The notes below the pieces were generated by a model. It did no database searches. It saw only the letters and a program-made list of their open reading frames with translations, and had not been told where the DNA came from. The position numbers and the translations under genes were made by a program. From contig CAUHML010000060.1 of NCBI GenBank assembly GCA_959606905.1, positions 1-18,271 of the forward strand: 18,271 bases of DNA, read 5' to 3'. Position 1 is the first letter of the stretch. Each line of letters opens with the position of its first letter. Source of the DNA: an uncultured Bacteroides sp. Its GTDB lineage: Bacteria > Bacteroidota > Bacteroidia > Bacteroidales > Bacteroidaceae. Positions 2,772 to 18,271 of this stretch are shown here, in pieces.

Positions 2772-4883
2772 TCAAGAAACCACACGGAAATATTGATCCA
2801 TTCTTCTCAAAAGCAGAATATACATATCACGTACTTCCCTTTGGGAATGTGTCGTGCTAAGCTCCTCCAGTCTATCGTGCAGACTATGCAATTCGTTCGT
2901 TAAACGTTTCTTTATACTATTATGTTCAGTAGCTTCCTGCATAATATCCAGCCACGCTTCCAAACATATCAGCTGAATATCCATCTGTTCATAACTAACG
3001 GCAGACTGCGGATCAAAACCATTAAACAATCCTTTATAAAGATCCCGGAAAAAATCAATATCGTCATACCCCTTCCGGTCACTCTGCAACGCCTGCAATC
3101 GAAGAGCTGAAATTGTCTTTACACTCAACAATTGTTTGAACAACTTCGCCAGTTCCGGATACAGAAGATTGTTTCTTGTTTCCAACAAATTCTCTTTTAC
3201 ATAGGTACATTCCATCTTTTTAACAGAATGAAATAAATAGTTGTCCAAATCAAGCATTGCCTGACGCTGCGCATCTGCCGGTTGAGAACTACCCACCACC
3301 TTTGCTATTTCCATCAGATAACTCCCATACAGACGAATAGCCTTTCTGTATATATCAGTGAGCGAACTCCCTTTATCGTATTTCTTCCCCTTATACACAA
3401 TCTTGTCCAACCGACTCACTACAGTCTGTAAATCCGATATTTTGACCGTATAATCTTCTGGAAATGAAGAATTAGAATTCTCCTTCCCTGATGGTTGGAA
3501 TAAACGAATGTGATCTGGTAAATTATGCTCTATCCATTGGCGGAGCTTCTCCCGTTCATCATAACAATTTTGGTCTCCTTTGAAAGGATGATAACCAAAA
3601 TAAATAGTACGGCAATCATCATCTCCAACTTTTAAAGTCTTTCCACACGAACTTTTCGATAAACTTCTGCGCAAACCTAAAAGATATCCAATTTCTTCCG
3701 TTATTTCATTTTGCAACAATTCTTTTTCCACTTCTTTAGAATAACGGTCAGCCAGAATACGCGAATCCGAGGCACCGCAACTTAACAGATAGTCGTCTAA
3801 TTTTCCTTTTAGGAATCCATGTCCGATATTCAGACGACATGAAAGTATTTCTCCGGTACGAGGATGACAGATAAAGTCACTTTTGATCCCCGGTATTCTT
3901 AAATCATAAGATATAAAAGCACGTTGTTCCGCCGGAATTATCTTTCGGTCTGCATACCTTACTTGTAAAGCATCATGAATACCTGCTTTATGGAAGGCGG
4001 TATTCCATGCTTCCACTCCTTCCTTTACTGCCTGGAAATATTCCTTCGGAAAAAGGGTATCTACATAGAAAGTAAGCGGTTGTGACATATCCCAACGAAG
4101 AATCAATGAATCTTCTACCATACAATAAGGATTTTGCGAGTAATCTTTGAAACTCAATGTCCGGTAGGGTATTCTGTAATCTGCCAGGCGGATCTGATCT
4201 TTTTTCAGAGGTAGCAAGCGTACTGCACAAGTGACTTCCAAAGGCATACTACCTTCAGGCAATAGAACGGCAGAACTGGACAGCATATATCTTTCCGCTT
4301 CAACTCCATGATAGCGCCTGACCGTAAACGACACACCTTCCTTAAAAGGATGTATTTTCATTATTTCCGACAGTTCCGGAACCAAGGAACGAATAAAACT
4401 ATCATTATAGCTGAACCAGTCATCGCCAGTCATCAGATACTCTGTTATCCGAATAATAGCTCCCTGCTCTTTTGAATAGGCCACCACTGAATAACTTTTA
4501 CCGGCAGGTTGCATATTTGACAACGAGAAAGATTGGTGATATGTGCTTTTTTCATCTAAAATACGCTCTGTATAAAACGGTTTTTGAAAGCAAATTGTAG
4601 CTTTATCCGGAGATATAATACGCACTACTCCCAGTCCGTCAACCGGACGATTCAACAAATCAAACCCTCGGTCTATCTGTCCACTGACTTCAATTTCCCG
4701 CCCGATATATTTTTCGGGTATTTCCAAATAGATTTCTTTTTCCGCTACATACACAGGAAACACACCGTCGATCTTATCCATCCCGGCAACAAAAAACTCG
4801 TCAAATGACTTGACGGAATCCTGTGCCTGAAGCAAAGCTGTGACACACAACAATATACCAATCACATATCTTCTTCTCTTCAT
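2772..4883 (-). CDS. Catalytically dead homologue of the neighbouring zinc metalloprotease
   Basis: This 703-residue protein has a signal peptide (MKRRRYVIGILLCVTALLQA, probably cut near residue 20). It is a full-length paralogue of the protease encoded just upstream: FYVDTLFPKEYFQAVKEGVE (272-291) matches FYIDRNTPEKYIDCIIEAVR there, and CHPRTGEILSC (339-349) matches CEPRSGEIIAC. Where the protease has HEVGHTLGLEH, this one has EEIGYLLGLRR (396-406). The three zinc histidines are E396, Y400 and R406, while the glutamate and glycine remain. About 40 residues that hold the Met-turn in the active enzyme are missing. The frame is open throughout, so this is a maintained pseudoenzyme rather than a decayed gene. 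It may bind peptide, regulate its partner or form a complex with it; that is inference. It is the last gene of the operon, 25 bases after the protease gene, and relates to the DUF5117/DUF5118 metalloprotease family. Confidence 0.85.
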   Translation of the reverse strand: MKRRRYVIGILLCVTALLQAQDSVKSFDEFFVAGMDKIDGVFPVYVAEKEIYLEIPEKYIGREIEVSGQIDRGFDLLNRPVDGLGVVRIISPDKATICFQKPFYTERILDEKSTYHQSFSLSNMQPAGKSYSVVAYSKEQGAIIRITEYLMTGDDWFSYNDSFIRSLVPELSEIMKIHPFKEGVSFTVRRYHGVEAERYMLSSSAVLLPEGSMPLEVTCAVRLLPLKKDQIRLADYRIPYRTLSFKDYSQNPYCMVEDSLILRWDMSQPLTFYVDTLFPKEYFQAVKEGVEAWNTAFHKAGIHDALQVRYADRKIIPAEQRAFISYDLRIPGIKSDFICHPRTGEILSCRLNIGHGFLKGKLDDYLLSCGASDSRILADRYSKEVEKELLQNEITEEIGYLLGLRRSLSKSSCGKTLKVGDDDCRTIYFGYHPFKGDQNCYDEREKLRQWIEHNLPDHIRLFQPSGKENSNSSFPEDYTVKISDLQTVVSRLDKIVYKGKKYDKGSSLTDIYRKAIRLYGSYLMEIAKVVGSSQPADAQRQAMLDLDNYLFHSVKKMECTYVKENLLETRNNLLYPELAKLFKQLLSVKTISALRLQALQSDRKGYDDIDFFRDLYKGLFNGFDPQSAVSYEQMDIQLICLEAWLDIMQEATEHNSIKKRLTNELHSLHDRLEELSTTHSQREVRDMYILLLRRMDQYFRVVS

Positions 4884-4908
4884 GAATTTCTTTATTTACT
4901 TTTCATCA

Positions 4909-7257
4909 TTAAAACAAAATACTATCTACAAGAAACATTGCCCGTTTTTTGGCAACCGGATCCGTAATCTTATGGCTATAATCAAGACTTTCCTCCTTTA
5001 TTCTATTCAAAGCCTGCATAATGGAAACCAATAATCTCGACGAAGTTATCTTTTCTGATCTATCCAACAATTTAACAAGTTTACTCACATAAAGCAGCTG
5101 CACTTTATACTTAGCGTCACTTACAGGAATATTGTCAGCCCATTCGGCAAATAATTCTTTATGTATGCTTTCCAAAAACTCATCTACAGACAACATATCC
5201 TCACAAACATTCTCCGTTCTTTCCACTTCCCGGAGGGAACGAATCATTTCCGACATCAGCTCTTCATAAAAGCGATCGAACTCCCGACTACCGTTTATTT
5301 CTAACTTAGCGGTAAGTTTTTCATCAAACATCCACACAGGCGGTTGTAATATATAAGCCTGTATAAAGCTCATAACCTTCTTATTGTAATCGGCTTTTTC
5401 GGGTATGTAAATATTCTCATCATCCGGCTCAGCAAGACGTTTCCCGCCCAAATGAGACAAAACGTGCTGTACCCACTGTTTATAATGCTCCAATACCGCT
5501 TCATAACGCCCCTGTAATACACGCAAAGACGTTTTATCCGTCACATTCCAGACATCCGGATGTTCACACAAATATTTCAAGTTCTCTATTCCCTGTGTAT
5601 TAACCATAACATGGTCATTACCCAAATCTTCTGCCTGAGCCCTTACATCCATTCTGCCCGAAAAATGTAATGAGGGATCTTTCTGTTTTTCCTGATTCCA
5701 AAGGCTCCTGTTCTTTTCTCTTTCAGAAGCATCTTTACCCGGAAATATACGATAGCCCCATTCAATAGCCCACTTATCATATTCACCGACACGTACCCTC
5801 CTGTTTCTCAAATCAACTTTATCTTGAGGACGCAAAGCATAATTACACCTCACATAATCCATAATGGAACTACCAATACTATATTGACTTAAAAAGTCAT
5901 TATCACGTAATTGATCGATGGAGTAATGAGAACTACCCAGAAAGTTATGTTCCAATCCTAATGTATGACCCACTTCATGTGTCAGCACTTGTTTTATCTG
6001 TTCGTATTGCAAAGAGTCCGGCAGCTCTATATTCCATGCCTGCGGATCATTCGCTCCACATTGAGCAAAATACCATTTCTGTTCCAAATTCAAGACACTG
6101 CAAAAAATACCGATGTGGCAAGCAATAATCTCACCGGACCGGGGTTCGCATGGAGTCGGTCCATAAGCGTTATTTTGTCCTGATATCTTCCATGAGATGA
6201 ACGGATAAGTACTGTCATAAATACTAAAATCAGGATTTTCCTCAACGGTAGGAGCCAGCCGCGCATCAATGGCGTTCTTAAATCCAGCTTTCTCGAAAGC
6301 CGGACGCCAGTCACGCACCGCTTCAATGATACAGTCGATGTACTTTTCCGGTGTATTACGATCTATATAAAAAATAATAGGTTGTATGGGTTCTACCAGT
6401 TCCCCCCTCATGTATCTTTCTTCATCTTCCGCCCTTATTTCCAGCCGCCATCGTTTGACAACAGATTTCCGAATAGCAGGCTGATTCCCTTGAAAACACT
6501 CCTTGCTGATAGAAAAATAAGCTCCGGTATTTGCAGCAACTGCCTCCAACGGTCTTTTTGACAGTAATTTTATGCAGATACCTGTATCCCAGTCTCCAAT
6601 ATAAGGAGGTGCAACAGGCTTACCTGGTATTTTCATTGACGAACTTCGATAAGCTCGTGATGCGTGTATCAACAAGCGGTTGTCATATCCTTTAATTTCC
6701 TTAATATAATCTTTCTCTCTTAAACGCGTACCTATCAATAAATCAAAAGATACAATATCAAGAGTAAACAAAGGAAAATCTTTTAATACTTCACCAATCT
6801 CTATCAGGCTGCTTCCCTGATTCCTAGCTTTAATCGGTAATATTTTATAAAGCCTTTCATTCCCACGTTGGGCGGCGATTTTTGCATACGTTCCTTCAGG
6901 ATTTTCTATCACCCTCTCATATTGTGGATCCATCATCCACAACTCGTCACCCTGTTTACGGAAACTGAAAAATACCGGACCTATCATGTCACCCGCATAT
7001 CCGAATTTCTTTTCCATATCCCGGTCCGGACGGGCAGGAGCTGTCAGGATAGTTGTCGTTACGGCAAACTCACGTCCAATCAATGAATCCGGGATTTCCC
7101 AATAGATATGTTTATCACTTCGGTAGGTAGTAAACATACCGGGAATAACTTCCACTGGTGCTTCTTCTTTAATAAAAGTTGTAATACTTTGCTGTTGCCC
7201 GTACAGACAAGTACAGACAACAGCAAGAAATACTGCACCGATAATTCCTTTTAGCAT
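4909..7257 (-). CDS. Secreted zinc-dependent metalloprotease (DUF5117/DUF5118/DUF4953 family)
   Basis: This 782-residue protein has an N-terminal signal sequence (hydrophobic residues 4-19, likely cut near 20). The metzincin-type zinc motif HEVGHTLGLEH spans 427-437, with H427, H431 and H437 as zinc ligands and E428 as catalytic base. SIMDY at 464-468 fits the Met-turn. The order matches the Bacteroides family annotated as zinc-dependent metalloprotease: DUF5118 near 30-80, DUF5117 near 85-275, and DUF4953 from about 420. Domain limits are estimates. Three cysteines (370, 380, 400) keep the same spacing as in the pseudoprotease. No lipobox is visible, so it is probably periplasmic, or exported by an unseen route. 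It lies 15 bases after the PKD-like lipoprotein gene and 25 before its paralogue. A role in trimming peptides brought in or held by the SusC/D system is inferred from context. Confidence 0.9.
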   Translation of the reverse strand: MLKGIIGAVFLAVVCTCLYGQQQSITTFIKEEAPVEVIPGMFTTYRSDKHIYWEIPDSLIGREFAVTTTILTAPARPDRDMEKKFGYAGDMIGPVFFSFRKQGDELWMMDPQYERVIENPEGTYAKIAAQRGNERLYKILPIKARNQGSSLIEIGEVLKDFPLFTLDIVSFDLLIGTRLREKDYIKEIKGYDNRLLIHASRAYRSSSMKIPGKPVAPPYIGDWDTGICIKLLSKRPLEAVAANTGAYFSISKECFQGNQPAIRKSVVKRWRLEIRAEDEERYMRGELVEPIQPIIFYIDRNTPEKYIDCIIEAVRDWRPAFEKAGFKNAIDARLAPTVEENPDFSIYDSTYPFISWKISGQNNAYGPTPCEPRSGEIIACHIGIFCSVLNLEQKWYFAQCGANDPQAWNIELPDSLQYEQIKQVLTHEVGHTLGLEHNFLGSSHYSIDQLRDNDFLSQYSIGSSIMDYVRCNYALRPQDKVDLRNRRVRVGEYDKWAIEWGYRIFPGKDASEREKNRSLWNQEKQKDPSLHFSGRMDVRAQAEDLGNDHVMVNTQGIENLKYLCEHPDVWNVTDKTSLRVLQGRYEAVLEHYKQWVQHVLSHLGGKRLAEPDDENIYIPEKADYNKKVMSFIQAYILQPPVWMFDEKLTAKLEINGSREFDRFYEELMSEMIRSLREVERTENVCEDMLSVDEFLESIHKELFAEWADNIPVSDAKYKVQLLYVSKLVKLLDRSEKITSSRLLVSIMQALNRIKEESLDYSHKITDPVAKKRAMFLVDSILF

Positions 7258-7272
7258 AAAGACCGGTTTATA

Positions 7273-8946
7273 CTATTCATAATTATAGCTAATATCAACA
7301 ATCTTCCCAATAGGCTGATCGGGATCTTCGTAAACACAAATGCTGTTTTCTTCACGAGCTACATCGCCCGCCACTGTCAATTGCAATTCGACAACTACAC
7401 CTTTGTCAGCAGTATTGATACCCAACCCGAGAGACATACCTAGTTTCTCCTTATATTCGCCTATTTCCTCATCGTCATCTTCCTCTCTCACACTTTCAGG
7501 GTCCTTAAATTTAAAACTAACTATCTGTGCTGACGGATCAGTTTCATAAGTATAAAGTTCAATTGCCCTTCCGCGACCAAGATCAATGCGATATAATTTA
7601 TTACCCGATGTCATAAATATAAGGTTTGCCGTATACGCGTAAGAAGCTGCAAATTTTGCTGTTTCTACATTTACTTCGGACGGTAAAGCAATCGTATACC
7701 GGGCAGCACAAATCGGATCTTCATCTTGCGCACTGAATTTAAACACAGTCAGCTCTTTTCCGTTATGGGGAGCAGCAATTGCATAAGCAAAATTTCCCCC
7801 GTTTCCTCCCGTAACAATGTCATGCACTTCTAAAGACGGATCAATCTTATTTGGATCAAAGACATTTGATTCATCAGACGACATTAAATATGTCCTGACA
7901 GGTTTCTGATCAGTCCATTTAGTTCCATAATTACGTATATCTTGAGTAGCCGAATTCGGTACCATATAATCGCTAAAACCCAGAATAGAGGAAGCAAGAA
8001 AACGATGATTTTCAGAATCAAAAAACAAATAGCCTCCTCCATACGAACCATAAGCGGAAATGGCGGGAAACTCACTTTCCTTTTTTACTGAGAATGGTAC
8101 ACAAAATCCATCCATAGGAGCACAATATGCTTTTCCACTATTCACAAACAATTCACCATGAGTACTCATCTTATAGAGCTCGATATTCAACGGTTCCCCT
8201 TTTCCAGTCGGTTCAAAAAGTATTTTATTCGATGGATATCTCGTTATTAAAGTACTTGGAGTCAACAAGGCCAAGTCCCGATCGGTTACCACCATTAACG
8301 CCGGACTTACTTTAAAACCAAAAAAACCCAGCATACTACTTAAAAACGAATCCCCATAGTTTTTTCTTGCACTTACCGCCAAAGGTTTTCCTTCTAACGG
8401 AAATGACTGATTCAGTTCTGATTTAAAGACATCCGGATAAACATAATATCCTTCCGGAGTACCCTCTATCGCTCCTAATACTCCCTTTCCTTCTTTTTCC
8501 TGCAATACAAACCAGCAAGGATTTAAAGGACGAATAATTGCAACTTCACCTATCTGATACCAGGTTGTTCCATTCTTTTTATCCGTAATGACCAACATCA
8601 AACCTATATTTTCGGATTCATAAGGCTCGACTGTTACTTTACATTCTTTGCCTACGGAATAATCTTTATAATCACTAAGTCTGTCCGACCCCGCTTTCTT
8701 TCCTTCGATTGTTTTCTTCCATTGAAATACAAGGTTTTTCTCATTTTGCTCCAAAGTCTGAGAAATCTCGGGTATAATTGAAACTTCGACTGCTTCCTCT
8801 TTAGGCATACGTACCTTCGTTTCAGGTATTACGATATCCATCGTATTTACATCATGATAATCGTAATCTCCCTTGTCATCGTAACAGCCTGTTTGCAATA
8901 AAGCCGCTCCGATAAAACTTACTATACAGATGATATATTTCCTCAT
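7273..8946 (-). CDS. PKD-like family lipoprotein
   Basis: This 557-residue protein begins MRKYIICIVSFIGAALLQTG followed by C21, a lipoprotein signal with lipobox LQTGC. The mature start CYDDKGDYDYHDVN is typical of the Bacteroides family annotated as PKD-like lipoprotein (PF16407-like), which is usually encoded with SusC, SusD and DUF4843 proteins. After a short Ig-like region, the body contains repeated short beta-rich stretches that could form a propeller-like domain; this is inference. An acidic run EEDDDEEIGE lies near residue 490. It is likely surface-exposed and may help bind substrate in the SusC/D complex. The gene sits 17 bases after the DUF4843 gene and 15 before the protease gene. 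Confidence 0.85.
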   Translation of the reverse strand: MRKYIICIVSFIGAALLQTGCYDDKGDYDYHDVNTMDIVIPETKVRMPKEEAVEVSIIPEISQTLEQNEKNLVFQWKKTIEGKKAGSDRLSDYKDYSVGKECKVTVEPYESENIGLMLVITDKKNGTTWYQIGEVAIIRPLNPCWFVLQEKEGKGVLGAIEGTPEGYYVYPDVFKSELNQSFPLEGKPLAVSARKNYGDSFLSSMLGFFGFKVSPALMVVTDRDLALLTPSTLITRYPSNKILFEPTGKGEPLNIELYKMSTHGELFVNSGKAYCAPMDGFCVPFSVKKESEFPAISAYGSYGGGYLFFDSENHRFLASSILGFSDYMVPNSATQDIRNYGTKWTDQKPVRTYLMSSDESNVFDPNKIDPSLEVHDIVTGGNGGNFAYAIAAPHNGKELTVFKFSAQDEDPICAARYTIALPSEVNVETAKFAASYAYTANLIFMTSGNKLYRIDLGRGRAIELYTYETDPSAQIVSFKFKDPESVREEDDDEEIGEYKEKLGMSLGLGINTADKGVVVELQLTVAGDVAREENSICVYEDPDQPIGKIVDISYNYE

Positions 8947-8963: not shown

Positions 8964-9647
8964 TTATTCATATTCTATTTCATCACCCTCTTCACCTAAA
9001 ATCGGTGGATTTCCCTCCTCCTTATATTCTCTATAAGCTTGCTTGATTACATCAATATCTTCATCTTCCAAATCATCCCATACACGTTGACATACATCCA
9101 TAATAAACATATATTTAGCATCGCTATAACTGCCAAATCCCACATAATCACTCCATTCGGTCGGTTTCAACTCCCATCTGACATTTAAAACGATTTGATT
9201 CTTTTCTACCAGACCTTTATCAAACTGATGAAGAGGGTTATTCAAATCAAACTCCAGATAACAACCATAAACATTTCTACCTGCCTCTACTTTCGGACGA
9301 TTTATTTTATAATAGAATATCTGGCAAACTGTATCAAGGTCAGTATATGTATACTTGCTTTCCAATAATACATCCACTGAATTCTGATAATCATTATTCG
9401 GAGTTACTTTCACACAGAAATCACGATTCTCTTTCAAAAAATCTCCTTGTATTCTTACCTCGAAACTGTCTACAGCATAAGGTTCTTTCTTCACATAATC
9501 CGTATCAACCAAAGTACGGACATGCGTAGTGCTACCATAGAAATTGATACGAGGTGTCTGGTCATATAAGTCTATCTCGTTTTCACTGCATCCTACATAA
9601 ATGCCGCAAACAAGAATAGCTAAAACAAAATATATAATACGTTTCAT
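8964..9647 (-). CDS. DUF4843-type lipoprotein
   Basis: This 227-residue protein has a lipoprotein signal ending YVGC, with the lipidated cysteine at C20, then SENEIDLYDQTPRINFYG. The opening and the gene position directly after susD match DUF4843 proteins (PF16132), small beta-rich lipoproteins of Bacteroides SusC/D loci whose exact function is unknown. The C-terminus is markedly acidic (EEGDEIEYE). A role as an accessory surface substrate-binding protein is inferred from neighbours only. Spacing is 9 bases from the susD gene and 17 to the PKD-like gene, so it is co-transcribed. Confidence 0.85.
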   Translation of the reverse strand: MKRIIYFVLAILVCGIYVGCSENEIDLYDQTPRINFYGSTTHVRTLVDTDYVKKEPYAVDSFEVRIQGDFLKENRDFCVKVTPNNDYQNSVDVLLESKYTYTDLDTVCQIFYYKINRPKVEAGRNVYGCYLEFDLNNPLHQFDKGLVEKNQIVLNVRWELKPTEWSDYVGFGSYSDAKYMFIMDVCQRVWDDLEDEDIDVIKQAYREYKEEGNPPILGEEGDEIEYE

Positions 9648-9656
9648 AATGCTTCA

Positions 9657-11180
9657 TCATTTAGAGTTGTTTCCAAAAATATACTCGTCATCCGGCAACG
9701 TCATCTGATAATGGGCTTCAGTCATCGTTTCAATCCCACAACCATAATAAGTGCTATAATTATGCGCTTTCAAGAAATAGAAAAGTTGACCTTCCGCGAA
9801 ATATTCTTTTCTATATTCTTTCATTATCTCATTAATACGTTTAGTCTGGTTTTTGTCTTCTTCCGAAGTATTATCAAGGTCATCATATCCGGTAGTCGGT
9901 ATTTCATCACTATAAGAGATACCACGTGCAAAACGTACGGTATTTAACGCGTCAGCACTTTCCGATGCAGAAGGAACACATTCTGCTACAATATAATACA
10001 TTTCGGGTAAGCGTATCAAAGGGATAGCGTCAGCACCGGAATAAGCATATCCGCCATTCAAAGGTTTCTGATTATATTTTCTACAAAAAACATCTGTCCG
10101 ACTTGCCCCATTAATAACCTCAAACATTTCCGTATTTTTTCTCCAGTCAGTATTCCCTGCATCGGCAGTTTCATAGAAGAATTTAAATTTATCTCCATCC
10201 AGATAGAAATGTTGCTGAGTATTGGTATTCTCCATATCCATATAATTTCCAATAAGCAAATTGGAGAATTCATTGACTGTTATTCCAAAGATTTGCTCTG
10301 CGTAGCGTATGGAATTGTAATTGGAAGCAGTCTGCGATTTATACAATGTAAAATACTTAGAGGCAGCAATCACTTGTTTAGCGTACTCTGTGGCCAATCC
10401 TTTACTTTCCGCATCACCTTTGTAACAATATACACGAGCCAGCATAGCTTTAACCGCATATAGATTCATACGAAACTCACGATTGACAAGAAAATGATTT
10501 TTATCTATAAAATCTTCATCCGTCTGATCGGTAAAGAAATCAAGAGGATCACTCTCTTTCAGTAATTTTTCAGCGTCATTCAAATCTTTGAGAATAGCGT
10601 CAACCACTTCGCTGGCTGGTAAAACAGGAGTGGCATCCTTATCAAAAGCAATACGGTAGGGTATAGCTTTGGATGCAGGATGTTCTTTATAAACAGGACC
10701 GAACATACGCAACAAATCAAAGTGAAGAAAAGCGCGAAGCCCGAGTGCCTCTCCCTTCATAGTTTCATAATAGCGTTCGGTAACTAAAACATCTTTATTT
10801 TTGTCTACGTACTCCAAGAAGTTATTAATATTGGCTATGATGTTATACATCGTTGAGTAAATCCCATTCTTCTTACTCAAAAACATGTTCTCATAATCGA
10901 ACACGATACTTTGGTCGAAAACAGCATTTGTATTATACCCCGGATAATCGGAATATAATCCTGCCAACTCATCCAAATAAGCATAAGTCAAGTCTCCGGC
11001 ATATAATGTCGTGGTTCCCAACTTCAAATAAATACCTGTAAGCGCATCCTTAAATCCTGATTCCGACTCAAATTGCTTGTCGGTAGGAATAGAAGTCTTC
11101 GGAGATACATCCAACCAGTCGCTGCAAGACATAAGTCCCAGCATTGTTGTTGTTAATAGTATATATATTATCTGTTTCAT
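9657..11180 (-). CDS. susD-like: SusD/RagB-family nutrient-binding lipoprotein
   Basis: This 507-residue protein has a signal with lipobox LMSC, lipidated at C19, followed by SDWLDVSPKTSIPTDKQFES, the classic mature start of SusD/RagB proteins. The N-terminal half has the TPR-like helices of the family, including GIYLKLGTTTLYAGDLTYAY and LGLRAFLHFDLLRMFGPVY. The C-terminal part ends in the typical MKEYRKEYFAEGQLFYFLK. SusD proteins form the outer-membrane lid over a SusC channel and deliver oligomers to it. RagAB of Porphyromonas gingivalis shows that such pairs can take up oligopeptides, which fits the proteases here. It lies 16 bases downstream of susC. Confidence 0.95.
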   Translation of the reverse strand: MKQIIYILLTTTMLGLMSCSDWLDVSPKTSIPTDKQFESESGFKDALTGIYLKLGTTTLYAGDLTYAYLDELAGLYSDYPGYNTNAVFDQSIVFDYENMFLSKKNGIYSTMYNIIANINNFLEYVDKNKDVLVTERYYETMKGEALGLRAFLHFDLLRMFGPVYKEHPASKAIPYRIAFDKDATPVLPASEVVDAILKDLNDAEKLLKESDPLDFFTDQTDEDFIDKNHFLVNREFRMNLYAVKAMLARVYCYKGDAESKGLATEYAKQVIAASKYFTLYKSQTASNYNSIRYAEQIFGITVNEFSNLLIGNYMDMENTNTQQHFYLDGDKFKFFYETADAGNTDWRKNTEMFEVINGASRTDVFCRKYNQKPLNGGYAYSGADAIPLIRLPEMYYIVAECVPSASESADALNTVRFARGISYSDEIPTTGYDDLDNTSEEDKNQTKRINEIMKEYRKEYFAEGQLFYFLKAHNYSTYYGCGIETMTEAHYQMTLPDDEYIFGNNSK

Positions 11181-11196: not shown

Positions 11197-14100
11197 TTAG
11201 AAAGCAACATTCAGAGCAAATGTAAACTGACGGGAATACGGATAGTACAAACCTCTTTCGCGTTTCACTGTAGACCAATAGAAAAAGTCTTCCATATTAA
11301 ACGTCACTTTAGCGGAACTCAATCCCCAATGACTAATAAATTTTGTATTAGTACGATCCATACGATAGTAAACAGACAACGAACTTCCCTGGAATATATT
11401 TTCATCCATTATAAACCGGGAAGTGGCTTTCGTTTCCAAACCGTTAGGATTAAGAATACGGAACTGTGCCTTATCACCCGGTTTCGCCCAACGTAGCTGA
11501 GTTACCCGTCGATCTACATTATATTTCAAATTAGCATTTTCCACCTTGTCAAGCAAGGTCTGATTATATACCTGACCGCCAAACTGATACCTGAAGCTGA
11601 CATCTGCTCCCCAACCTCTGTATGTAAAGGAAGAATTAATATATCCTTGCCATTTAGGTTCTGTATTACCAATAGGTACTACATCATTCGCACTCCAGTT
11701 AACGGCACTCGTCATCTCCCCGTTACGTTTCAATAATATTTCATCTCCGGAAGCCGGATCAATACCTAATGAACGTACTACCCAGATACGGGAAAGAGAT
11801 TCACCTTCTTCATAACGTGGCAACGGCGTATCTTTTAAATCTGATGCACTTTTATCATTTCTGTATTTCATCGCTTCCGATATTTTCAATAGTTTGTCAG
11901 TATTATGAGAACCGTTTACTGTAATTGTCCAATAAGCTTGTTTAGCAGTGTTTTTATAAGGAATAGCCGAGAGAGAAATTTCCCAACCCTTATTCTCTAT
12001 CTTTCCCAGATTTTCCGGATAACTGCTGAAACCAAGAGAAGGAGCAAGACTTATATTGGCAACCATATTATCTGTTATTTTCCGATAATATTCCACACGT
12101 GCAGTAAAACGCTGATCGAAAAACCCGAGTTCCAAGGCAAGATTAGTACTTTTTGTAGTCTGCCATTTTAAACTTTCATTATGCATAGCCAAGATTTCCG
12201 AACCTGTTGCATCCGACGAGTAATAAGGAAGCAGTAAATTGGAATATGTATAATAACCATGTGCCTGATAAGGATCAAAACCTTGGGAACCGGTCGTACC
12301 GTATGTACCCCTCAAAATAAAATCAGAAATAAAAGATACATCTTTCAAAAAGTTCTCTTTTTTCAAATCCCAACGTAATCCGGTTGACCAGAAAGGAGCC
12401 CAACGGTTATTTTTTCCAAATTGAGAAGAACCGTCCAAGCGTATATTAAAGTCGAACGAATACTTATATTTATAAGAATAGCCTCCAGCAACTACCCAAC
12501 CAATGGAGCGCGTTGTCCTCTCATCTCCTGTCACCTTCTCATTATATTTCTTACCAAACAACAAGTTATCCATATTATCATTCGGGAAACCAGTCACATA
12601 GTTTCCATAAGTCTCCGAATTATTCTCCAATACACTCATACGTGCATTAGCAGTCAGGTAGTGATCTTCCAGTTGCTTATTCCAGCTTCCTGTTAAATCT
12701 ATGCCCCAATTGACAGCTTCGCTCTGACTTCTGCGGTAATCACCTCTTAAGGTAGGATCAGTCACATTATCAAAAAGCGTATGTTGTGCAGGACGAAAAA
12801 TATCACGATGTCCTACGCTCTTGGACAGATTAAAAGCTCCTTCAAACCGTAATTCATTAGTAGGATTATATTCCACCTTGAAAAGTTCACGTACTGTAAA
12901 GTTTTTACTTTGGTCTTTACTGTTGAATGTCGTATTATACATCGGATTCAGGTAGCTCGACTCACCACCCACTCCTTCAAAATTATCAAGCCGTTTTTGT
13001 ATTTCTCCGTTCTCTCCATACGGACGCAGATAAGGATTCAAGCGGGTATATTCACTAAAACTTCCCCACGGAGACTCATTAGCCACCGAATTATCCAACG
13101 TAATGCTATTCTTTAACAACACCTTTTTCAGACGATACTGAAAATCAAGTGAACCGGTCAGTACATCACGTTTGCTGTCTTTCATCACACCCGGAGAACT
13201 ATTATATCCGACATACATCCGATAGCGTAAGGCTTCATCACCACCTTCCAGCGTAACTGTATGTCGTTGTTGGAAAGCTGTTTGCAAAGGCTTGTCCAGC
13301 CAATAAGTATTTACTCCTGCCAGCACTTCACGCAATTTAGATTGATAGAGCTGCCATTTTTCAACTGTTTCGCCGCCGTATGTATAAAGTCCGCTTTGCA
13401 ACTCTGCATCTATCTTCTCTCTTGCATTCATCAAGTTATACCCGGTCATATCCGGAGCTTCAATACGAAGTTCCCCACCATAAGTCACCCAAATCCGTCC
13501 CGGTTTGGGAGTCTTGCTTTCGATAACAATTACTCCATTTGCCGCACGCGAACCATAAATAGCCGTAGCTGCCGCATCTTTCAACACAACGATGGAAGCA
13601 ACACGGTCGGGATCCATATCAGCAAGTGTCTGTATACTGATTTCAAATCCATCCATGATAAGCAGCGGTTGATTGGCATAGGTCTCATATTCGCCCTGAA
13701 CTGCCAGCACATCATTACTGGCAGAATTTAAATCTACCGTAGCCTGTGCATTCAAATCCATATTTGCACCGCCACGCATACGCATATCAGGCAGATTATT
13801 CGGATTAGACCCCATATTGATATTATCCATGATACGAAGCCCGGGAGCGACAGCAGCTATCGCTTTAGCCACATTATTCGTACTATACTTTTTCAGCTCT
13901 TCACCCTTGATAGTAACAGCAGAACCAGTGAATCCCTCTTTCTTTCTATTAAACATACCTGTCACCACCACTTCATCGAGTGCTTTTGTATCAGACTTCA
14001 TCACTACCGACATATAGGATGAAGGATTCAAGAACTGAGTCTCCAAACCTACATACGATATTCTAACCCGACTATCTTTCGAAACATTAGAAAGCTGAAA

Positions 14101-14550
14101 ATTACCATTATTGTCCGTGATAGCCCTAATATTATTGGCATCTTCTACGATAATAGTGGCACCGATAACAGGAAGTCCGTCTTCCTCGGAAAAAACTTTT
14201 CCTTTTACTTGTGAAAAAAACTTTTTAGAATCCTCTTTTGTGATATTGATGAATTGTCCGTCAATGTGGTATTTCAACGGATTTTTCCCGATAATCACTT
14301 TCAATGCTTCATCGACTGTAGCTTTTTCTACTTTTCCGGTAGAAGTATAAGAACTGATTTCATCGTAGATAAAAAGAACTTTATATCCCGATACTTTTTC
14401 AAAACGTTTAAAAATAGAGGGTAATCCTTCATTTTTAAACTCCATTGTTATTTGCTTTTCCTTACCTGTTTGCGCTTCAACACGCCATGAATAGGCAAAA
14501 AGGAAAAACAAGAACAAGACAATGAACTTTTGTGCTTGATTCTTTTTCAT
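11197..14550 (-). CDS. susC-like: SusC/RagA-family TonB-dependent transporter with STN signalling domain
   Basis: This 1117-residue outer-membrane transporter has a signal peptide (about 1-27). An STN secretin/TonB N-terminal domain follows (about 32-104, starting KQITMEFKNEGLPSIFKRFE), then a carboxypeptidase-regulatory-like domain (about 114-185). A TonB-box-like stretch LDEVVVTG lies at 191-198, followed by a plug (about 205-345) with the SusC signature VLKDAAATAIYGSRAANGV at 322-340, and a long beta-barrel ending FALNVAF. The STN domain is the feature of transporters that signal to an inner-membrane FecR protein, in keeping with the fecR and sigma genes directly upstream. It is the first gene of a six-gene operon, preceded by a 133-base gap holding a putative ECF promoter. 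The substrate is probably peptide, inferred from the metalloprotease genes downstream. Confidence 0.95.
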   Translation of the reverse strand: MKKNQAQKFIVLFLFFLFAYSWRVEAQTGKEKQITMEFKNEGLPSIFKRFEKVSGYKVLFIYDEISSYTSTGKVEKATVDEALKVIIGKNPLKYHIDGQFINITKEDSKKFFSQVKGKVFSEEDGLPVIGATIIVEDANNIRAITDNNGNFQLSNVSKDSRVRISYVGLETQFLNPSSYMSVVMKSDTKALDEVVVTGMFNRKKEGFTGSAVTIKGEELKKYSTNNVAKAIAAVAPGLRIMDNINMGSNPNNLPDMRMRGGANMDLNAQATVDLNSASNDVLAVQGEYETYANQPLLIMDGFEISIQTLADMDPDRVASIVVLKDAAATAIYGSRAANGVIVIESKTPKPGRIWVTYGGELRIEAPDMTGYNLMNAREKIDAELQSGLYTYGGETVEKWQLYQSKLREVLAGVNTYWLDKPLQTAFQQRHTVTLEGGDEALRYRMYVGYNSSPGVMKDSKRDVLTGSLDFQYRLKKVLLKNSITLDNSVANESPWGSFSEYTRLNPYLRPYGENGEIQKRLDNFEGVGGESSYLNPMYNTTFNSKDQSKNFTVRELFKVEYNPTNELRFEGAFNLSKSVGHRDIFRPAQHTLFDNVTDPTLRGDYRRSQSEAVNWGIDLTGSWNKQLEDHYLTANARMSVLENNSETYGNYVTGFPNDNMDNLLFGKKYNEKVTGDERTTRSIGWVVAGGYSYKYKYSFDFNIRLDGSSQFGKNNRWAPFWSTGLRWDLKKENFLKDVSFISDFILRGTYGTTGSQGFDPYQAHGYYTYSNLLLPYYSSDATGSEILAMHNESLKWQTTKSTNLALELGFFDQRFTARVEYYRKITDNMVANISLAPSLGFSSYPENLGKIENKGWEISLSAIPYKNTAKQAYWTITVNGSHNTDKLLKISEAMKYRNDKSASDLKDTPLPRYEEGESLSRIWVVRSLGIDPASGDEILLKRNGEMTSAVNWSANDVVPIGNTEPKWQGYINSSFTYRGWGADVSFRYQFGGQVYNQTLLDKVENANLKYNVDRRVTQLRWAKPGDKAQFRILNPNGLETKATSRFIMDENIFQGSSLSVYYRMDRTNTKFISHWGLSSAKVTFNMEDFFYWSTVKRERGLYYPYSRQFTFALNVAF

Positions 14551-14683: not shown

Positions 14684-15862
14684 TTATTCAATAATTAGTT
14701 TTCCTGTTTCAAAATGAGCATGTATCCTCTCCATTCGATTCAATAATTCAATCAAGTGAAAGATGTCTTGGTGACGATTTGCAAAGAAATGCATACGAAG
14801 ATCCATAATTTTGCTATTGCGGAACTCAATATCTATATTATACCAACGCCCTATTTCTTTCATCATGTCAACCAGGGCAACATCGTCAAAATAGAAAAAT
14901 CCTTCCTTCCAATATAAAAATGATTCAATGTCCACCTCGTTCACAGCAAACGTTCCGTCAGAAGAAAGCTGTGCACTTTGTCCCGGCATCATTTCAACAC
15001 TATGAATTCCACAAGTATCGCTAACAGCCACTTTTCCTGTAATGAGCGTAACACGGACATCAATAGGAGAGTAGCTACGCACATTAAATTCCGTTCCTAA
15101 TACGCGAACCTGTAGATTTCCACTTTTCACAATAAAAGGATGTTTTGCATCTTTAGTAACTTTAAAATAAGCTTCACCTTCCAAAGAGACGACTCTTTCT
15201 TTTCCTTTAAAAACCGTAGGGTAAGCCAGACGACTATCCGAATTCAAGAAAACTTCAGTCCCATCAGATAAAACGACTTTGAATGTCTCTCCCCTAGGAA
15301 TACTTAATCTATGTATCTGTACTTTCTGCTTTCCTACTTCCTTGGTTTCTGTCTGAAGAAGAGCACGACTATAATCTATTTTTTTAGAAGACAACTGTGC
15401 AGTAGAGGAAGACGAAAGAGATTCTACCACTTCTTTTAGTGGTTTTATTTCCTTCTCATCATTCACTTGTAAAGTGACTTCTTGGGCAACATGATTGGCT
15501 TGAAACACTTGAATGATTTCCGGTTGCGACGAAATCATCATTGCACGCAAAACTAAAATTATGACAACAGTCGCCGCTACACCTGTGGCACTGGCCCACA
15601 ACAGTATCCGCGTATTTTTTCTTCGATCGTTTTTAGAATGTTTATTATGAAAATCTGCCAATTCATTCCGGACATCAATTGCCAGCATATTTTGTTTTTT
15701 CTGCATCTCTATCACAATTTCTGCCAAATCAGAACATGCCTGCAAGCACTCCTCATCTTCTTTCAAATTATGCAATTGATCAGCAGTTATATGAGAACGA
15801 TTCTCCATAATTTCCAGGAGTTCTTCTTCCGACTTACTTATATTTATATTCTTTTCATCCAT
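14684..15862 (-). CDS. fecR-like: FecR-family anti-sigma factor
   Basis: The protein has 392 residues from ATG 15862; a TTG at 15877 could add five residues but would sit almost on the predicted transcript start. An N-terminal cytoplasmic region (about 1-84), expected to hold the sigma factor, is followed by one membrane segment (about 85-108, LLWASATGVAATVVIILVL). The periplasmic part contains a FecR domain (about 185-280, with LSDGTEVFLNSDSRLAYP and VVSLEGEAYFKV) and a C-terminal DUF4974-like region (about 315-390). FecR proteins relay a signal from the STN domain of a TonB-dependent receptor to an ECF sigma factor. Here the partners are the SusC downstream and the sigma gene just upstream. 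The gene carries its own putative ECF promoter inside the end of the sigma gene. Confidence 0.93.
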   Translation of the reverse strand: MDEKNINISKSEEELLEIMENRSHITADQLHNLKEDEECLQACSDLAEIVIEMQKKQNMLAIDVRNELADFHNKHSKNDRRKNTRILLWASATGVAATVVIILVLRAMMISSQPEIIQVFQANHVAQEVTLQVNDEKEIKPLKEVVESLSSSSTAQLSSKKIDYSRALLQTETKEVGKQKVQIHRLSIPRGETFKVVLSDGTEVFLNSDSRLAYPTVFKGKERVVSLEGEAYFKVTKDAKHPFIVKSGNLQVRVLGTEFNVRSYSPIDVRVTLITGKVAVSDTCGIHSVEMMPGQSAQLSSDGTFAVNEVDIESFLYWKEGFFYFDDVALVDMMKEIGRWYNIDIEFRNSKIMDLRMHFFANRHQDIFHLIELLNRMERIHAHFETGKLIIE

Positions 15863-15885
15863 AAATAATGTATTCAATATATATA

Positions 15886-15914
15886 TTTACGTTTTAAAGT
15901 CTATTCCGGTTACC
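15886..15914 (-). promoter_or_regulatory. Putative ECF-sigma promoter of fecR
   Basis: On the minus strand this reads GGTAACC (15908-15914), 16 bases, then CGTAAA (15886-15891). With two more bases upstream the first box is AGGGTAACC, identical to the box before susC. The upstream box lies in the last codons of the sigma gene. The expected transcript start (about 15878-15880) leaves a leader of roughly 17 bases to the ATG at 15862 and supports that start over the TTG at 15877. Confidence 0.5.
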
Positions 15915-16403
15915 CTCTTGACCCAATTCTTCGCGAAGAATACGCAAAGCCTTTACTATATTCTTATGAATAGCCGCAACACTTACATTCAATTCTTCGG
16001 CCACTTCTTTATATTTCTTATTATGAATATAGCATGCTTCCAATATATGATAATTATAAGGAGTCAACTTTTCCATAGCTTTACGAATACGCAAAACACG
16101 AGAATCAGAATGTTGCGAATCGCTTTCTATCATTTTATCAGTTAATTGCGAAGTAAACTCTACATATTCTTCATGGATATTTTGCTTGCGAAGATAGTCA
16201 ATGCAACGTGTACGAATGATTGTATAAAGATAAGTTTTAGCCGTCGCCTCTTCTATCTTTTCATAATTACGCCACAAATACTCAAAAGCATCACTTACGA
16301 TATCTCTGCATACCTCAGCGTCATTTATAAAATAATATGCAAAATATACAAACTGTGCATACCATTCATTAAACATTTTGTCAAAAGTAGCCCTGTCATC
16401 CAT
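15894..16403 (-). CDS. ECF RNA polymerase sigma factor (Bacteroidetes type)
   Basis: This 169-residue protein has sigma region 2 at about 8-75 (FNEWYAQFVYFAYYFINDAE ... DIVSDAFEYLWRNY ... YLYTIIRTRCIDYLRK). Region 4 is at about 107-157 and ends in a helix-turn-helix, YKEVAEELNVSVAAIHKNIV. It has the size and pattern of the sigma-70 family expanded in Bacteroides next to fecR and susC genes. It should direct polymerase to the susC operon once released by the FecR protein encoded 31 bases downstream of its stop (16 if the TTG start is used). It starts at ATG 16403, only 43 bases after the end of the preceding gene. Confidence 0.95.
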   Translation of the reverse strand: MDDRATFDKMFNEWYAQFVYFAYYFINDAEVCRDIVSDAFEYLWRNYEKIEEATAKTYLYTIIRTRCIDYLRKQNIHEEYVEFTSQLTDKMIESDSQHSDSRVLRIRKAMEKLTPYNYHILEACYIHNKKYKEVAEELNVSVAAIHKNIVKALRILREELGQEGNRNRL

Positions 16404-16446: not shown

Positions 16447-18271
16447 TTAAAACTTAATACGCAGTTGCATTTGTACATCTCCTTTTTTATTTCCACAGAT
16501 CAAATCATTGCCTGAACCGATCTCATTCCGATCTAAATAGACTGTTTCGCCAAACTTGGTTATGAACAACCAGTGCTTATTCAGTTCATATCTGAGACGG
16601 ACGCTACAGCGAAATCCACGACCTTGGAAGGACGGTGTGTAGAACGTATAAAGCAATCCGCTTTCCGAAGCATATACGCGCGAATCATAATCCTCTGTAA
16701 AAAAGTAACTGCCCTGAACGTCAGCAAACAGCCTGGCCCAAGGCAGTTGGGAGGATATCATTTGTGTAACCTGATATCCTTTATTAGCAGCTCTGTCCTG
16801 AGAATGAAAATGATTATAATCTAAAGTTGTACGACTGCTTAACACATCTCCTAAAGAATAGTTCAAACGGTAGCGAAGTTGATGGTGAAAAATAGGAAGT
16901 GTTAGTGTTCCTTTACTACCTGTCCAATCCCTTTCTTTGCGTTTATAGCGGTACTTTAGATACATGGATAGATGGCTGCGCGGAGTGAAAGTGGCTTGAA
17001 GCAATCCGTCTGTTCCGCGAGAGGGTTTATTTACTCTGTATTTTTTCCACGGAAAAGAAAATAAATCGAATGAGGCGAAAAATTTCCAATAAGCAAAAGG
17101 AGAAGCCTCCATGCCGATATAATATCCCTGTTCATTTTGTGTCGTACTTCCTTCACCGAAAGAATGGGCGAACATGGCCCAATAGTTATAAGAATAAAAC
17201 CGGTGTATCAACATGATTTGAGTGTTTTGAACCGGTGAATACTGCAAACGGTTCAAAGAGGCCCAACCTTGTTTTCCTATGGCCGTCTCTCCTTGAAAAG
17301 AAAAACGATGCCAGCGATAAGCATAATCAATCCCCAGATTATAGAAGTTGTTTCCATGAAGATTGTATTTGGAATAGCCTGTTAATTCCGGTTTGTATGG
17401 TCGGTTGAAAAGGTAGTAAATCCCGGTGATACCCAGTCGGATACGGTTGTGTTGATAACTCACGTTTCCACCTGTTAATTGCATGGTAAACAGGTTCTTT
17501 TTATCTGCTTCCTTTTGACTTCTGTGTAATCCGGTTTTATAGATGGAGGTAATTGCTCCGTTAGTGATTGTTCCATCTAATGAGCGGTGTGAATAGAAAC
17601 CGGAAAGATCCCAATCTTTAGATAAAGCAACAGTGGCAGCCACTCCCCGAAAATAATTGTATTCATCGCTGGAAGAGTGTTTCTTTATCCCCCCACTGCG
17701 ATTGTTGAAGGAAGAGGCATAGACTGTTTTTCCCATCAGATAATCAGTGCTAATCACTAATCCTTGTCCGAAACTAAGCCGATAGTTACCAACAGCTAAT
17801 GCTTTTAATCGTCCACAATCTTTTAATAACAGATAAAAGGAATAATAATCGTAGCCATAACGATTGTGTAAAGCTCCAAAAGGTTCTCCGGCATCTTTCT
17901 CGGCAACGACTCCTGCATAAAGTCGGTCACTGTATCGGAAACTGTATTTCACAGAGTTATAAACAGAAGGACCTAAATAGGTATGTTCATAACCTTTTCG
18001 CTTATAAAATGGTATATCAAAGCGAGTTAACAGCTCATTCTTTCCATACTTCGCTGCGCTTTTCAACAGACTTTTCCACCGAAAAGCAGCTTCATTGTTA
18101 ATAGCTTTTATACAGACGAAAGGTAGTAAATACTGGATTGTTTGTTTATCCATCTCTTCTACCAGTTGGAGTTCATAGATGGTTTTCATCTGTCCGTGTA
18201 TATAGATATAGGCCAGCAGATGTTCAATCTGAATATCACTAAGGAAAGGAAACTGTTCGAGTTGTTCACGG
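16447..18271 (-). CDS. Helix-hairpin-helix protein with probable outer-membrane beta-barrel (5' partial)
   Basis: The frame is open through the right edge, so the start lies outside and at least 607 residues are visible. The first visible part, LEQFPFLSDIQIEHLLAYIY, HGQMKTIYELQLVEEMDKQT and IQYLLPFV, has the rhythm of a ComEA-like helix-hairpin-helix repeat. An internal ATG at 18189 falls in the middle of it and is not the start. The rest is rich in alternating aromatic strands (SVKYSFRYSDRLYAGVVAEK, LRYRLNYSLGDVLSSRTTLD, GFRCSVRLRYEL) and ends in MQLRIKF with a terminal phenylalanine, as in outer-membrane barrels. Genes of this mixed type are seen in Bacteroides genomes without a defined function. 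It ends 43 bases before the sigma gene and is probably a separate unit. Confidence 0.75.
   Translation of the reverse strand, partial: REQLEQFPFLSDIQIEHLLAYIYIHGQMKTIYELQLVEEMDKQTIQYLLPFVCIKAINNEAAFRWKSLLKSAAKYGKNELLTRFDIPFYKRKGYEHTYLGPSVYNSVKYSFRYSDRLYAGVVAEKDAGEPFGALHNRYGYDYYSFYLLLKDCGRLKALAVGNYRLSFGQGLVISTDYLMGKTVYASSFNNRSGGIKKHSSSDEYNYFRGVAATVALSKDWDLSGFYSHRSLDGTITNGAITSIYKTGLHRSQKEADKKNLFTMQLTGGNVSYQHNRIRLGITGIYYLFNRPYKPELTGYSKYNLHGNNFYNLGIDYAYRWHRFSFQGETAIGKQGWASLNRLQYSPVQNTQIMLIHRFYSYNYWAMFAHSFGEGSTTQNEQGYYIGMEASPFAYWKFFASFDLFSFPWKKYRVNKPSRGTDGLLQATFTPRSHLSMYLKYRYKRKERDWTGSKGTLTLPIFHHQLRYRLNYSLGDVLSSRTTLDYNHFHSQDRAANKGYQVTQMISSQLPWARLFADVQGSYFFTEDYDSRVYASESGLLYTFYTPSFQGRGFRCSVRLRYELNKHWLFITKFGETVYLDRNEIGSGNDLICGNKKGDVQMQLRIKF

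Follow-up and report, generated by a model that had tools for sequence, protein, structure and literature searches.

Why should a bacterium maintain, directly behind an intact zinc protease gene, a full-length homologue without zinc ligands? This question is raised by an 18,271-nucleotide stretch of DNA from an uncultured Bacteroides sp. (contig CAUHML010000060.1), which we analysed as a whole and call the window. Its minus strand carries an operon with a SusC/SusD-type transporter, at the end of which lie a gene for an active metzincin of 782 amino acids (aa) (4909–7257) and a gene for a zinc-dead paralogue of 703 aa (2772–4883). We refer to the two proteins as active and dead. The dead gene is under purifying selection, it stands immediately behind an active gene at each of the 36 loci examined, and in one lineage the two genes share a common descent.

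The dead open reading frame (ORF) is uninterrupted over its 703 codons. In BLASTP, the dead protein and its active neighbour have 29% of residues in common across 171 aa (E 5e-19) and, at the N-terminus, 34% across 64 aa. Both proteins possess the DUF5118, DUF5117 and DUF4953 (‘Met-zincin’) domains, each above its Pfam gathering score. The DUF4953 score is 37.5 bits in the dead protein and 238.3 bits (E 1.5e-70) in the active one, the cut-off being 24.2. The intact zinc motif HEVGHTLGLEH (active residues 427–437; 5947–5979, minus strand) reads EEIGYLLGLRR in the dead protein (residues 396–406; 3666–3698, minus strand), so that E, Y and R stand in place of the three histidines and the glutamate between the first two is retained. 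A 40-residue gap opposite active residues 445–484 removes the Met-turn. The dead protein therefore lacks both marks of a metzincin peptidase, the HExxHxxGxxH/D motif and the Met-turn; the active protein contains HExxHxxGxxH and a SIMD Met-turn. The first-pass annotation had described exactly this: two adjacent genes homologous along their length, one of them with an open frame but with all zinc ligands and about 40 residues around the Met-turn missing. In comparison with the Met-zincins of the DUF4953/DUF5117/DUF5118 family (PF16313, PF17148 and PF17162), the dead protein of the window has the same three domains but no zinc ligands and, in its lineage, no Met-turn. The nearest genome (G001) encodes an identical dead protein, and close copies of the gene exist in B. 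xylanisolvens XB1A (locus L031) and B. finegoldii DSM 17565 (L032).

We then asked whether the dead gene is maintained. The ratio of nonsynonymous to synonymous substitution rates (dN/dS, NG86 method) between the window and loci L055, L056, L057 and L060 is 0.21, 0.15, 0.11 and 0.12 in the case of the dead gene; the corresponding values of the active gene are 0.10, 0.13, 0.11 and 0.10, and a PKD2 gene of the same operon gives 0.15–0.21 in these four comparisons. The dead gene of L054 is identical to that of the window, and dS is saturated for L058 and L059. Against the near-identical L031 and L032, where changes are few, the ratio for the dead gene is 0.29 and 0.23, and two distant pairs give 0.35 (dead) vs 0.25 (active) and 0.21 vs 0.12. 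Constraint on the dead gene is thus slightly weaker than on the enzyme and comparable to that on PKD2. At 35 of 36 loci the dead gene is one unbroken ORF; at L155 it is divided between two. Random decay, which would have undermined the earlier suggestion of a maintained dead partner, is not what we see. Loss of catalytic residues together with purifying selection, the hallmark of a pseudoprotease, is found in the dead protein, which is putatively free of residual proteolysis and of metal binding.

The dead proteins constitute a family of considerable diversity. In a search of 5.8 billion proteins, none of the best 120 of 373 homologues of the window type (class A) has the HExxHxxGxxH motif. 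A second type (class B), found through L065 and L068, has 44 homologues, none of them with HExxH. A third (class C) comprises dead copies from multi-gene arrays. We aligned 106 dead sequences (53 of class A, 42 of class B, seven short ones of 424 aa and four of class C) jointly with 148 active ones; the alignment leaves out seven partial or fused proteins of P0001–P0049, four partial class-B proteins and seven active proteins below 740 aa, it takes seven of the 71 listed short proteins, and some of its rows are near-copies. The first and third zinc histidines are absent in 106/106 dead sequences and none retains two histidines, the second being left in 16/53 class-A and 2/4 class-C sequences, whereas ligands and methionine are kept in 148/148 active sequences. 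For rows taken from our loci, the motif itself decided the label live or dead, so that counts on those rows are partly circular; the database proteins, 113 active and 89 dead, were selected without regard to the motif. All 126 members of the window-type active group keep all zinc ligands, including these 113. A further homologue search covered the best 120 of 7957 matches.

The Met-turn segment is absent in 42 of the 53 class-A sequences and still present in the other 11, a lineage-specific gap; loss of the zinc ligands therefore probably preceded that of the segment. Class B usually has threonine at the position of the methionine (35/42). The letters that replaced the zinc ligands are not conserved either. 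The first-pass annotation had asked whether an EE..Y..G..R pattern recurs among homologues, and it does not, since relatives read KEVGH, RQVGF, KSIGE, CAIGD or QKVGT: the conserved feature is the loss of the zinc site, and the EE..Y..R signature is local. A conserved replacement metal site at the former ligand columns was likewise rejected, as these columns hold many different residues. As side observations, 71 of the best 120 class-A homologues (P0050–P0120) are only 424–434 aa long, and those that we read have the dead architecture but stop about 40 residues past the old zinc motif; we looked for the host, the neighbours and an active neighbour gene of the 424-aa form and found none. Two zinc-dead class-B proteins (P0134 and P0155) are named ‘zinc-dependent metalloprotease’ in public records.

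The pairing is strict. At all 36 loci with a dead gene, in 26 genomes, an intact active metzincin gene lies directly upstream on the same strand, with a gap of −14 to 66 nucleotides (nt). These loci come from 8 of 158 genomes of the genus, 5 of 15 genomes of the genus g32, the genome G063 and 12 genomes of the family f106 (22 loci); they include near-identical ones, and the active ORF of L061 is cut by a contig end. When the active gene was searched in the same 158 genomes, it was found with at least 66% identity in exactly the same eight, the next match having at most 34%. Co-occurrence with the active gene, the other point on which the earlier suggestion depended, thus holds throughout in one fixed order, and strict co-occurrence of both subunits is what one would expect of an active/dead heterodimer. 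The pair was found in 10/399 sampled genomes of the family and 4/393 of the order (two candidates scored per genome), and in at least 12 of the 56 genomes of f106, where more dead copies may exist among matches below 400 bits, which were checked in the fetched stretches and among the partners seen in L066–L068. Searching f106 with the active partner of L068 gave 78 matches, including the partners of all 22 dead genes. Seven of the 56 other matches (four from g238, one from L161 and two from L162) were placed on trees as candidate unpaired members of the partner clade, and all seven fall outside it.

The phylogeny indicates how the pair arose. The trees are quick ones with Shimodaira–Hasegawa-like approximate likelihood ratio test (SH-aLRT) support, and L155, with its split dead gene, was left out of them and of the 31 pairs compared. 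In a 103-row tree, 39 dead proteins (class A, class B and relatives) form one clade (SH-aLRT 100) and 24 partner active proteins form a separate one (SH-aLRT 99). The branching within the two clades agrees for the class-A groups and class B, and trees of dead and active proteins from 13 loci have 9 of 10 splits in common. In this lineage, therefore, the pair has descended as a pair. The nine class-C dead copies fall in three further places among the active proteins; for one of them, L069_9787 of the nearest genome (G001), the sister is a live protein from L163. A single clade for the 47 dead rows of a smaller tree is rejected by the approximately unbiased (AU) test (p-AU 4.7e-37), and with it a single inactivation event for all dead copies, so at least two inactivations must have occurred. 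The starred branches force three changes of state in the smaller tree and four in the larger. Evolutionary rates covary as well. After removal of the shared signal, active–dead has the highest correlation of 15 gene pairs at 11 class-A loci (0.81), followed by SusC–SusD (0.55), while the adjacent pairs PKD2–active and SusD–DUF4843 give −0.13 and −0.53. A test with five genes from 16 loci gives 0.71 for active–dead (0/2000 permutations).

The predicted structure suggests that the fold outlived the zinc site. The model of the dead protein retains a matrix metalloprotease (MMP)-like fold, including the five-stranded sheet and active-site helix by which the metzincin fold is recognized. A Foldseek search of the PDB gave no match at E ≤ 0.001 for the dead or the active model; metzincins appeared in a second look, which was given to the dead model alone. 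No solved structure for the DUF4953/DUF5117/DUF5118 family was found by sequence search. The dead protein differs from matrixin catalytic domains (karilysin 2xs3 and MMPs) in having no zinc motif, extra N-terminal β-rich domains and a C-terminal helical part. A hairpin beside the cleft, HPRTGEILSCRLNIGH (dead residues 340–355; 3819–3866, minus strand), scores 0.59 for conservation in dead and active proteins alike, whereas the dead ones show drift in the zinc helix; the segments for this comparison were picked by eye.

Both proteins are probably periplasmic, judging from their N-termini. These look Sec-like by eye in both protein types, and the lipoprotein pattern is absent in 32/33 dead and 26/33 active proteins; this combination favours the periplasm, with a stronger case for the dead protein than for the active one. 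A stricter lipobox rule had missed the SusD, DUF4843 and PKD2 proteins of the window, which are our positive controls, and was relaxed; the relaxed rule flags 31/31 SusD-type, 17/17 DUF4843 and 18/18 PKD2 proteins and 1/18 SusC proteins.

What, then, does the dead protein do? It might be a free peptide-binding module that catches imported peptides in its old cleft and passes them on to the enzyme or protects them with no stable complex. The persistence of the cleft hairpin beside a drifting zinc helix and the near absence of the lipoprotein pattern among dead proteins suit this idea. However, the N-terminal domains are conserved to an equal degree in dead and active proteins too, so equal conservation is no proof of a working cleft, and such a module alone leaves both the invariable active-then-dead order and the rate covariation unexplained; we regard it as unlikely, although worth serious attention. 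Less probable still is an inhibitor or maturation factor, by which the exported enzyme would be held inactive or helped to fold until substrate arrives. The gene order and the short gaps would permit coupled translation, and the three-domain architecture common to both proteins agrees with such a role, but we saw no sign of inhibition, and relatives seem, from their gene content, to function without a dead gene.

We consider it very improbable that the dead protein has become a new enzyme with a different catalytic site, such as one centred on H340, E345 and H355. H340 occurs in 53/53 class-A sequences where active proteins mostly have Asp or Glu, and other polar residues (S122, R190 and D373, for example) are near-invariant in the dead family. 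On the other hand, H340 is present in just 5/42 class-B sequences, H355 is found in 18/22 other active proteins, and P279, W293, G344, E345 and Y431, which are invariant in 60/60 dead rows, are kept in active proteins as well. The idea of a slowly decaying pseudogene, retained by linkage only, is hardly credible. It could draw on the somewhat faster evolution of the dead gene in most comparisons, the split gene of L155 and the existence of the 424-aa short form; we rejected it on the dN/dS values, far below 1, and the intact frames, and the age of the gene is great, some class-A relatives being as little as 28% identical to the window sequence.

We favour the reading that the live and the dead metzincin are a pair, most likely the two subunits of a heteromer, which is probably periplasmic and acts on peptides or proteins imported by SusC/D; in our judgement this reading could prove right or wrong about equally readily. 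An ancestral Met-zincin (DUF5118/5117/4953) would have been duplicated inside a SusC/D operon, one copy retaining HExxHxxGxxH while the other lost the zinc ligands and, in some lines, later the Met-turn. The dead copy, with its fold and cleft-side hairpin preserved, may hold or position the substrate, or may shape and regulate the live subunit, and the pair would handle peptides or proteins imported by the transporter of the same operon. The first-pass annotation had offered a regulator, a chaperone, a peptide-binding module or a heterodimer subunit; its maintained dead partner is borne out, and among the options, which do not separate cleanly, a partner subunit keeping part of the cleft is the one we prefer. 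More tentatively, and with somewhat more doubt than confidence, we propose a new two-subunit class of metzincins in SusC/D loci of Bacteroidales, with an obligate partnership between the live protease and its zinc-dead sister; it would be ancient in one lineage, and the best tree would have it arise three further times through inactivation of one copy in a tandem array, with selection favouring a dead subunit. Our caution here has two grounds: the dead and active clades conflict in their deep branching, and the independent losses were counted on quick trees.

Several observations weigh against an obligate pair in contact. The conflict of the deep forks is one: L148/L150, L151/L152 and L154/L158 are united among the active proteins and apart among the dead ones. 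Raw distance correlations at the 11 class-A loci are high for all gene pairs (0.95–0.996, with SusC–active at the top), so linkage explains much of the covariation, and in the 16-locus test DUF4843–active (0.76) exceeds active–dead, with SusD–PKD2 at 0.60; rate covariation supports coupling without singling out one contact. The active protein of the window itself is among the 7/33 flagged as lipoproteins, with a cysteine in the signal stretch, which makes its location unsure. Four active relatives from g238 have neither SusC/D nor a dead gene in their stretch, although two of the four contigs end nearby. Among nine chosen tandem metzincin arrays, of which L164, L167 and L169 resemble one orthologous array, four contain dead copies and five are all active, and the notion that every such array holds a dead copy was rejected. 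A last point comes from Clostridioides difficile, in which the protease CspB has the maintained dead paralogues CspA and CspC and the dead members heterodimerize; these pseudoproteases are reported to bind each other in a complex without CspB (PMC12880746). A pseudo-enzyme thus need not bind its active paralogue. The Csp system resembles ours in that a bacterium keeps dead paralogues of a live protease, but it is subtilisin-like, serves spore germination sensing and involves neither zinc nor SusC/D.

Two arrays deserve mention as such. The nearest genome has a second SusC/D-DUF4843-PKD_2 locus (L069, G001:C1:2543000–2562900) with three tandem metzincins, two of them zinc-dead, the active one seemingly split over two overlapping ORFs. 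In L165 (2894–16154), five tandem metzincins stand in the order active, dead, active, dead, active.

We also investigated the genes around the pair. The minus-strand row begins with an extracytoplasmic function (ECF) sigma factor (15894–16403) and a FecR-type anti-sigma factor (14684–15877), followed by a SusC-like TonB-dependent transporter (11197–14550) with an N-terminal FecR_C-like domain, which we take to be of the STN type, and a SusD-like protein (9657–11180). Next come a DUF4843-like protein (8964–9647; 28.7 bits against a gathering score of 34.5), a PKD_2 family protein (7273–8946) and the active and dead genes. The SusD-like, DUF4843-like and PKD_2 proteins are lipoproteins by pattern, and the gaps from SusC to the dead gene are 16, 9, 17, 15 and 25 bp. 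SusC, SusD and peptidases together in one operon are the gene content of a SusC/D locus for peptide utilization, and the loci of the pair probably import peptides. Peptide use also fits the thioredoxin-dipeptidyl peptidase IV (DPPIV)/S9 fusion additionally encoded by the class-B loci L068 and L142 and the S9-family protein on either flank of the class-C locus L166. Among class-B-like loci, L148 (2535–4487) runs on into a DsbD_N-domain protein and L154 (1706–4217) into Redoxin and thioredoxin proteins; further genes are linked by BLAST alone to the S9/thioredoxin fusion of L068. Behind the dead gene of the window, a presumably radical-SAM-like gene (1883–2656) recurs in all eight loci of the genus and in L060; it was seen at none of the other loci in the gene-content comparison and is therefore probably no part of the system. 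At the other end, a gene without a clear Pfam match (16447–18189), probably truncated by the window end (relatives have 678–682 aa), is also located upstream of the sigma factor in L054–L059.

Pairs of one active and one inactive homologous subunit are known among zinc peptidases from the mitochondrial processing peptidase (MPP) and bacterial M16 pairs. These are alike in their live/dead subunit organization, but their fold (HxxEH) is unrelated; a literature search on the bacterial M16 pairs gave no usable result. The metzincin pair resembles other protease/pseudoprotease pairs in its working while standing outside their families. RagAB is a SusC/SusD peptide importer with accessory lipoproteins, and the locus of the window is similar in having a SusC/SusD pair plus accessory lipoproteins; we know of no active/dead metzincin pair in RagAB-type importers, for which no dedicated search was made. 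In the open-access literature, no paper naming DUF5117, DUF5118 or DUF4953 and no description of such a live/dead metzincin pair was found, part of the SusC searches being blurred by ‘susceptibility’. This agrees with the earlier remark that no described function was known for such a pair in SusC/D loci.

Pseudo-enzyme partners are well studied in few systems, and we found none in print among metzincins or SusC/D loci. The distribution of the pair is patchy yet deep within our family and order samples. If the dead copy is indeed a subunit, the real enzyme would escape any assay restricted to the live protein. The repeated inactivation of a copy beside a live one is a natural experiment from which one may learn why dead subunits persist in protease systems.
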